The position numbers and the translations under genes are program-made. This document shows, one piece after another, positions 44,609 through 46,987 of a stretch of 64,000 bases of DNA. The notes under the pieces were generated by a model. That model searched no databases. It was not told the DNA's origin and saw only the letters and a program-made list of their open reading frames with translations. This DNA is from Fibrobacter sp. (GTDB taxonomy: Bacteria; Fibrobacterota; Fibrobacteria; Fibrobacterales; Fibrobacteraceae): assembly GCA_017412605.1 (NCBI GenBank), contig JAFPWY010000003.1, positions 62,001 to 126,000 of the forward strand. The letters are read 5' to 3'. The stretch's first letter is position 1. Each line of letters starts with the position of its first letter.

Positions 44609-45400
44609 ATGTCCGAATATCAAGATTTTTTATCTGTTGCTGAAGCTCTCGCGAAACAGGCGGGGGCTCTTTGTCTTGAACTCCAGCAGAACCTGGGCGA
44701 CGTGAAGTACAAGTCCAAGAAGGACGTGGTGACCCGCGCCGATATCGCTAGCGAGAAACTGATTGTCGATGGGCTCAGGAGTGCGTTCCCGACGCATTCC
44801 ATCCGTACCGAAGAGGCGGGCGTCATCGAGGGCGCGGACTCGCGTTACTGCTGGATAATTGACCCGGTGGATGGAACCGTGAATTTTAGCCGCGGCATCC
44901 CGTTCTGGGGTATTTCCATCGCGCTCCATTTCGAGGGCAAACCGTTGGTCGCGGTCGTAAACCTTCCTCGGTTGGGCGAAGTCTTTACTGCTGTGAAAGG
45001 TGGTGGCGCCTTCATGAACGGCAAAGCAATCCATGTGAGCGAAGAAGCCGACCCGGTGCACGCCATCGTTTCGAACGGCGACTTCAACGTGGGCAATCCC
45101 GAAAAGATCAATCCGCAGAACTCTCGCAACTTCGCCCGCGAGGCCGAGGTGTTCGAGCGAGTCAAGTGCTTTGGCTCGGCAGTGGTGGAGGGGTGTTTTA
45201 CCGCGTGCGGCCGCATCGACTGCTTCGTGATGACGATGAGCTACCCTTGGGATATCGCTGCGATAGCCCTGATTGTCGAGGAAGCCGGCGGAAAATCCAC
45301 CCATATTGACGGGTCCCCGATGCTGTTCGTGGATGGCGAGCAGGTGGTGTTCTCGAACGGCATCCTGCATGAAACGCTCGTGAACTGCGTAACGATGTAA
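44609..45400 (+). CDS. Inositol monophosphatase family protein (SuhB/HisN-like)
   Basis: 263 residues. Metal-binding motifs TEEAG (Glu), WIIDPVDGTVNFSRGIPFWG, and a third site YPWDIAAIALIVEEAGG are intact, so it should be an active Mg2+-dependent sugar or inositol phosphatase. Substrate (inositol-P, fructose-1,6-P2, histidinol-P) cannot be decided from sequence. The region before the ATG is heptad-repeat DNA with no SD. Confidence 0.92.
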   Translation: MSEYQDFLSVAEALAKQAGALCLELQQNLGDVKYKSKKDVVTRADIASEKLIVDGLRSAFPTHSIRTEEAGVIEGADSRYCWIIDPVDGTVNFSRGIPFWGISIALHFEGKPLVAVVNLPRLGEVFTAVKGGGAFMNGKAIHVSEEADPVHAIVSNGDFNVGNPEKINPQNSRNFAREAEVFERVKCFGSAVVEGCFTACGRIDCFVMTMSYPWDIAAIALIVEEAGGKSTHIDGSPMLFVDGEQVVFSNGILHETLVNCVTM

Positions 45401-45433
45401 AATGATTTTTACTTTTGTGCTGGAAAACCGCTG

Positions 45434-45451
45434 ACTTACAAAAATGTAAGT
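45434..45451. promoter_or_regulatory. Inverted-repeat operator 1 upstream of gdhA
   Basis: ACTTACA-AAAA-TGTAAGT, a perfect 7-bp inverted repeat. An identical core recurs 82 bp downstream. Confidence 0.65.
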
Positions 45452-45515
45452 TTTTGTTCCGTAGCTCGTTGAAATTTTGTTAAAATTGGCTATTTTGATT
45501 TATTTCAAAAAAGTA

Positions 45516-45533
45516 ACTTACAAAAATGTAAGA
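45516..45533. promoter_or_regulatory. Inverted-repeat operator 2 upstream of gdhA
   Basis: CTTACA-AAAA-TGTAAG core, same 16 bases as operator 1. Centre lies about 60-70 bp upstream of the probable transcription start. Confidence 0.65.
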
Positions 45534-45557
45534 AATTGAAGATTTTTGGCTCTGTTT

Positions 45558-45586
45558 TTCACTTTTTGTCGCGGGTTTGCTATCTT
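45558..45586 (+). promoter_or_regulatory. Probable gdhA promoter
   Basis: TTCACT (45558-45563), 17-nt spacer, TATCTT (45581-45586). The leader of about 45 nt carries GGAG before the ATG. Confidence 0.5.
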
Positions 45587-45607
45587 TAGACCCGTTAAAA
45601 ACTTTAA

Positions 45608-46987
<1,380 letters not shown>

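Follow-up and report, generated by a model that had tools for sequence, protein, structure and literature searches.

Twin palindromes upstream of gdhA in Fibrobacter: probable operators of a nitrogen-assimilation regulator related to sigma-54 enhancer-binding proteins

The window analysed here, a stretch of 64,000 nucleotides from a Fibrobacter sp. contig, carries gdhA (45638..46987, + strand), which encodes an NADP-specific glutamate dehydrogenase (Pfam PF00208 and PF02812; NCBIfam NF006929 above cut-off). Ahead of it lie two exact copies of the 16-base core CTTACAAAAATGTAAG (CTTACA-AAAA-TGTAAG), a distal operator at 45435..45450 and a proximal operator at 45517..45532, neither assigned to a strand. 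The cores are 82 bp apart from start to start and lie 106 to 203 bp ahead of the ATG at 45638. The earlier note had described them as inverted repeats with 18-base spans, which is correct, with an outermost pair of A/T for the distal copy and A/A for the proximal one, and had placed their spacing close to eight helical turns, which also holds (82/10.5 = 7.8). The 66-bp spacer between them (45451..45516, no strand) is conserved in length and keeps an A/T-rich block in part, as seen in an alignment of 56 upstream regions. The window has no further perfect match to the core, and its five other matches with up to three mismatches are at chance level. The whole genome (3,534,652 bases) contains two perfect copies of CTTACA-N4-TGTAAG, both before gdhA, and none of the reversed control pattern. 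With one mismatch allowed, three more places bring the total to five, versus six for the reversed control, which reveals no further sites above chance. The twin sites before gdhA are therefore confirmed. The closest proteins to gdhA among the matches listed come from Clostridia MAGs, at no more than 78% identity, in a search that apparently excludes records of this group.

For footprinting, we collected as much as 600 bases of gdhA upstream sequence from relatives. Within the same genus (g1), 80 genomes gave 69 usable regions, and 11 genomes were dropped for want of a gdhA match (seven) or because the region had no start or was gapped (four); in G040 the region is a run of N. The pair is found at exactly 82 bp in 65 of the 69 congeners (61 scored automatically; G048, G055, G083 and G089 seen by reading), at 83 bp in G044 and at 93 bp in G042, and it is absent from G043 and G045. 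Scored at any spacing, the best pair has at most two mismatches in 65/69 real regions, compared with four to eight in 207 shuffles of the 69 regions. The outcome named in the earlier note as a refutation, repeats that are not conserved before gdhA in close relatives or that lie at random positions, is thus not what is seen: the pair is kept in position and spacing. The distal copy is frequently weakened to TGTAGG among congeners, and both arms have changed together (CCTACA/TGTAGG) in G033, G035 and G055. The operator centres vary between AAAA, ATTT and TTTT while the arms are kept, and the sequence further upstream differs between genomes.

The alignment also points to a promoter. A predicted –10 box, TATCTT (45581..45586, + strand), lies within the conserved string TTTG[CA]TATCTTT at a fixed distance from the proximal site: from the start of the proximal 14-mer to TATCTT we counted 63 nt in 61 of the 69 regions and 62 nt in two, and of the six unscored regions G048 and G083 show the majority distance as well. 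The distance from TATCTT to the ATG, by comparison, ranges from 55 to 299 nt, and inserts of about 10–240 bp fall in the leader and none between the sites and the promoter. The two sites and the promoter thus form a rigid unit, whereas the leader is free to vary. Inserts of about 165 to 240 bp separate the –10 box from the gdhA ATG in G026 (L099), G053 (L013) and G086 (L109). A poor –35-like hexamer, TTCACT (45558..45563, + strand), is suggested by its 17-bp distance to the –10 box. If TATCTT is the –10 box, the operators would be centred near –68.5 and –150.5. No sigma-54 –24/–12 box (GG-N10-GC near TGGCACG-N4-TTGCA) occurs in any of 87 gdhA upstream regions; the same scan found one in 21 of 21 promoters of the glutamine synthetase paralogue GSIIIb, which served as the positive control.

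A third conserved palindrome, TGTAAA-N6-TTTACT (45396..45413, no strand), is everted and resembles a TyrR box. The pattern TGTAAA-N6-TTTAC is present in 37/69 gdhA upstream regions (shuffle mean 0) and occupies a fixed position ahead of the distal site in 54/63, 38 bp from it centre to centre. It occurs in no GSIIIa or GSIIIb region, and TyrR-like boxes show no excess genome-wide (21 versus 19 in the control).

Outside gdhA, the motif recurs at one other nitrogen locus. The pattern TACAWWWWTGTA matches this genome five times (control 0), twice at gdhA, twice within a single divergent intergenic region and once inside a gene. The intergenic twins lie between the gene for a type III glutamine synthetase (GSIIIa; PF12437) and that for a divergently encoded 378-aa enhancer-binding protein, EBP-a (contig C13 of this genome, G000; L207:234-1370), so that four of the five matches fall at gdhA or GSIIIa/EBP-a. 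In another 12 genomes TTACAWWWWTGTAA matches 28 places, of which 26 belong to the same two loci and the others are G059:C3:81983 and G108:C138:5516. TTACA-N4-TGTAA twins stand between GSIIIa and EBP-a in 66 of 67 scored genomes, 29 bp apart in 60 and 28 bp apart in six; the sole exception, G040, has neither the twins nor an EBP-a neighbour. G043 and G045 fall outside this count, though in G045 two exact sites are spaced 29 bp apart. In 67/69 genomes EBP-a is encoded next to GSIIIa and divergently from it, the exceptions being G040 and G090, where the contig ends. A sigma-54 box has a single weak match among the 67 GSIIIa regions. On the EBP-a side, a TATATT or TATTTT box lies 20–21, 31–32 or 42 nt from the nearest site depending on the clade. 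One clade has no such box, and in one clade the sites adjoin the start codon of EBP-a, suggesting that the gene represses itself in that clade.

In the sister genus g6 the gdhA pair is kept in six of six genomes, at 82 bp (G097), 93 bp (G098) or 83 bp (G099–G102), with altered outer bases (TGTCA, TGTAAC). Twins also head the gltB-gltD genes in this genus, exactly 30 bp apart in all five genomes examined (G097, G098, G100, G101, G102). In G102, gltB, gltD and a gene for a NifA-like EBP follow one another with gaps of about 10 bp, the EBP gene coming directly after gltD. A pattern search of the six g6 genomes also gave a few other single matches, among which those read in G097, G100 and G101 (one each) have no evident tie to nitrogen genes. 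In both genera, then, the N4 motif accompanies genes of ammonium assimilation, gdhA and GSIIIa in g1 and gdhA and gltB in g6. This near restriction to ammonium-assimilation genes speaks for the earlier guess that one regulator, concerned with nitrogen or amino acids, acts at both sites. No EBP-a was detected in g6 at E<=1e-60, and the HTH of the EBP present there differs from that of EBP-a, so that the N4 motif may have a different binder in that genus. The motif would be read there either by g6's own EBP or by some other factor.

The promoters of GSIIIb, sampled in 21 regions, provide a contrast in spacer length and sigma factor. None of the 21 carries an N4 site. In the spacer table, which covers 20 regions (G102 dropped), exact N4 is found in 0/20, whereas TTACA-N5-TGTAA lies upstream of the sigma-54 box as an exact match in 15/20 and with one mismatch in 20/20. 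N5 twins 29–30 bp apart, with one mismatch allowed, occur in 10/20. At GSIIIa the counts are reversed (exact N4 66/67, exact N5 0/67), and only one of 69 gdhA regions has an exact N5 site. The N4/N5 contrast rests on exact counts alone, since N5 with one mismatch also matches 33/69 gdhA and 12/67 GSIIIa regions. The GSIII promoter of G107 (genus g10) joins an exact N4 site and a mismatched second site 31 bp on to a sigma-54 box matching at 12 of 12 positions, a link between the N4 motif and enhancer-binding proteins. In some genomes (L344, L349, L356) GSIIIb and gltBD diverge from each other, and G108 and G015 have an ammonium transporter and the enhancer-binding protein EBP-b near GSIIIb as a nitrogen cluster.

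EBP-a and EBP-b group as sister clades (support 0.986 and 0.958), and their HTHs are much alike. EBP-a combines an AAA+ sigma-54-interaction domain (PF00158, E 6.5e-58) with a Fis-type HTH (HTH_8, PF02954; 34 bits, cut-off 22). There is no receiver domain among the Pfam hits of this 378-aa protein, which sets it apart from NtrC proper, and no sensor domain was recognised. EBP-a proteins are often 60–68% identical between genomes whose gdhA proteins are 99–100% identical, as if fast-evolving. EBP-b has a GAF domain, an AAA+ domain and a Fis HTH, and it is encoded near GSIIIb in several genomes. We surveyed the GAFTGA motif in 39 EBP-a proteins and 10 EBP-b proteins (three from g6). Its threonine position is T in 23, A in eight, I in five and L in three of the EBP-a proteins, a loss in 16/39, while none of the 10 EBP-b proteins has lost it; the EBP-a of this genome carries GAFAGA and not an intact GAFTGA. 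GAFTGA mutants are mostly unable to activate (PMC7175178), and in Caulobacter and Rhodobacter there are NtrC proteins that lack GAFTGA and work at sigma-70 promoters (PMC10274813). Sigma-54 itself is present in 13 of the 13 genomes searched.

The spacings of the twins (28, 29, 30, 82, 83 and 93 bp) differ in phase by no more than roughly a quarter turn, for a helix of 10.5 bp per turn, and the 93-bp spacing has been arrived at in different genera (G042 and G098). A phase test on 29, 30, 82 and 93 gave p of about 0.004, a rough value since the test was made after the spacings had been seen. The spacings support a phase-dependent interaction of the two sites, so far as one can judge from sequence. 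Relative to the predicted start, the proximal site would lie near –68.5 at gdhA, –73.5 at GSIIIa and –62.5 at g6 gltB, which do not share one helical phase.

Our favoured interpretation, which we consider likely, is that the gdhA twins are operators of a nitrogen-assimilation regulator, most probably EBP-a, working with the housekeeping sigma factor and probably activating. Each 16-bp palindrome would be occupied by one EBP-a dimer, and a pair of dimers, spaced 28–30, 82–83 or 93 bp and thus facing the same side of the helix, would cooperate, presumably under a nitrogen signal. The complex at gdhA would stand immediately ahead of a weak promoter of the housekeeping type (TATCTT –10), which it would probably activate. 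EBP-a would have arisen by duplication of the NifA-like EBP-b, whose putative targets are sigma-54 promoters with TTACA-N5-TGTAA enhancers; on the EBP-a branch the half-sites are the same but spaced by 4 bp and unaccompanied by a sigma-54 box, and the sigma-54-contact motif is partly lost. Against this interpretation stand the 23 of 39 EBP-a proteins that retain GAFTGA, the genomes G043 and G045, which retain EBP-a yet have lost the gdhA sites, the unequal helical phase of the proximal site relative to the predicted start at gdhA, GSIIIa and g6 gltB, and g6, with its N4 twins and no EBP-a at the threshold used. The earlier interpretation is thus upheld in part: two operators of one regulator, and a nitrogen or amino-acid regulator, both stand, and of its two modes of action the upstream activator would fit better. 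The candidate regulator beside GSIIIa and the N4/N5 contrast between paralogues are additions to it.

A different transcription factor common to g1 and g6 could bind the N4 palindromes, EBP-a being merely one of its targets through the sites in its own promoter. The twins before gdhA and gltB in g6, where EBP-a went undetected, would fit such a factor, as would the clades whose sites lie at set distances from the EBP-a TATATT box, as if regulating EBP-a. We think this unlikely, because the EBP-b-type GSIIIb promoters share the half-sites and the twin spacing, with N5, and because G107 unites N4-type twins with a sigma-54 promoter. A Crp/Fnr protein was the best alternative factor tried, but 11 of the 12 sequences read show the canonical recognition helix GTTRETVSR, and each of the 13 genomes has a match whether the motif is present or not. 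Should EBP-a, or EBP-b as well, be the binder, it might instead repress gdhA through a small DNA loop between dimers. The rigid phase of the twins and the clade in which sites adjoin the EBP-a start codon could be read this way. However, the predicted promoters of gdhA, GSIIIa and g6 gltB are each preceded by both sites, with no overlap of –10 or –35, and the –35 region of gdhA is poor, as in activator-dependent promoters. The location of the gdhA sites in particular favours an upstream activator, and repression by looping seems to us quite improbable. That the palindromes act as RNA hairpins, as terminators or leader elements, is hardly credible: TTTTTG does follow the first copy, which is located behind the upstream gene, but 45380–45660 contains no terminator-like site, the sites lie upstream of a conserved promoter with inserts confined to the leader, and their centres and upstream sequence vary while the arms stay.

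Known operators were also compared with the sites. The NifA upstream activator site, TGT-N10-ACA, occurs in 2/69 gdhA regions (shuffle mean 7.35), and the NtrC site, TGCAC-N7-GTGCA, in 0/69. CopY/BlaI operators (TACA-N2-TGTA) share the TACA/TGTA half-sites, but their spacer is 2 compared with 4 here, and spacer 2 was not clearly enriched in the promoters scanned. A sigma-54 promoter was likewise rejected at gdhA and GSIIIa on the scan results above. TyrR, which acts with sigma-70, and GcsR resemble the proposed system in being EBP-type regulators that use TGTAA half-sites and several palindromes per promoter (PMC4894688); their sites (TGTAAA-N6-TTTACA and TGTAACG-N4-CGTTCCG) have half-sites everted relative to TTACA-N4-TGTAA. 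The TyrR box was rejected for the twins on this orientation, and the element at 45396–45413 alone resembles it.

Among regulators, NifA is the closest model for the sister proteins, TIGR01817 being the best match of both EBP-b (458 bits, below the cut-off of 529) and the g6 EBP (550 bits), with GSIII and gltB as their putative targets. The NtrC proteins of Rhodobacter capsulatus and Caulobacter have a receiver domain. They resemble the proposed EBP-a in other respects, as EBP-family nitrogen regulators with a broken or missing sigma-54 contact that control glutamine synthetase from housekeeping-type promoters (PMC10274813). Their L1 loop is deleted, as against the threonine substitutions and missing receiver of EBP-a. 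By analogy, EBP-a would resemble these sigma-70-acting NtrC proteins in its working while, with no receiver, falling outside NtrC. Searches of open-licence PMC papers on this fibre-degrader group or on GSIII control, which brought up PMC5552732 on Prevotella among others, yielded no such nitrogen regulator or operator.

A broader scenario, whose chances we judge evenly balanced, is that a NifA-like nitrogen regulator and its glutamine-synthetase target were duplicated and the copies came to be separated by one base: EBP-b with N5 sites and sigma-54, and EBP-a with N4 sites and the housekeeping sigma factor at GSIIIa and gdhA, losing its sigma-54 contact, with twins in one phase (about 29, 82 or 93 bp) as the common architecture. 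Our analysis thus offers a testable regulon, consisting of gdhA, GSIIIa and EBP-a, with gltB in the sister genus, together with a candidate for its regulator. It also brings out a natural series that bears on how sigma-54 activators turn into ordinary regulators: after duplication, an enhancer-binding protein appears to switch sigma factor and to shift its operator spacer by a single base.
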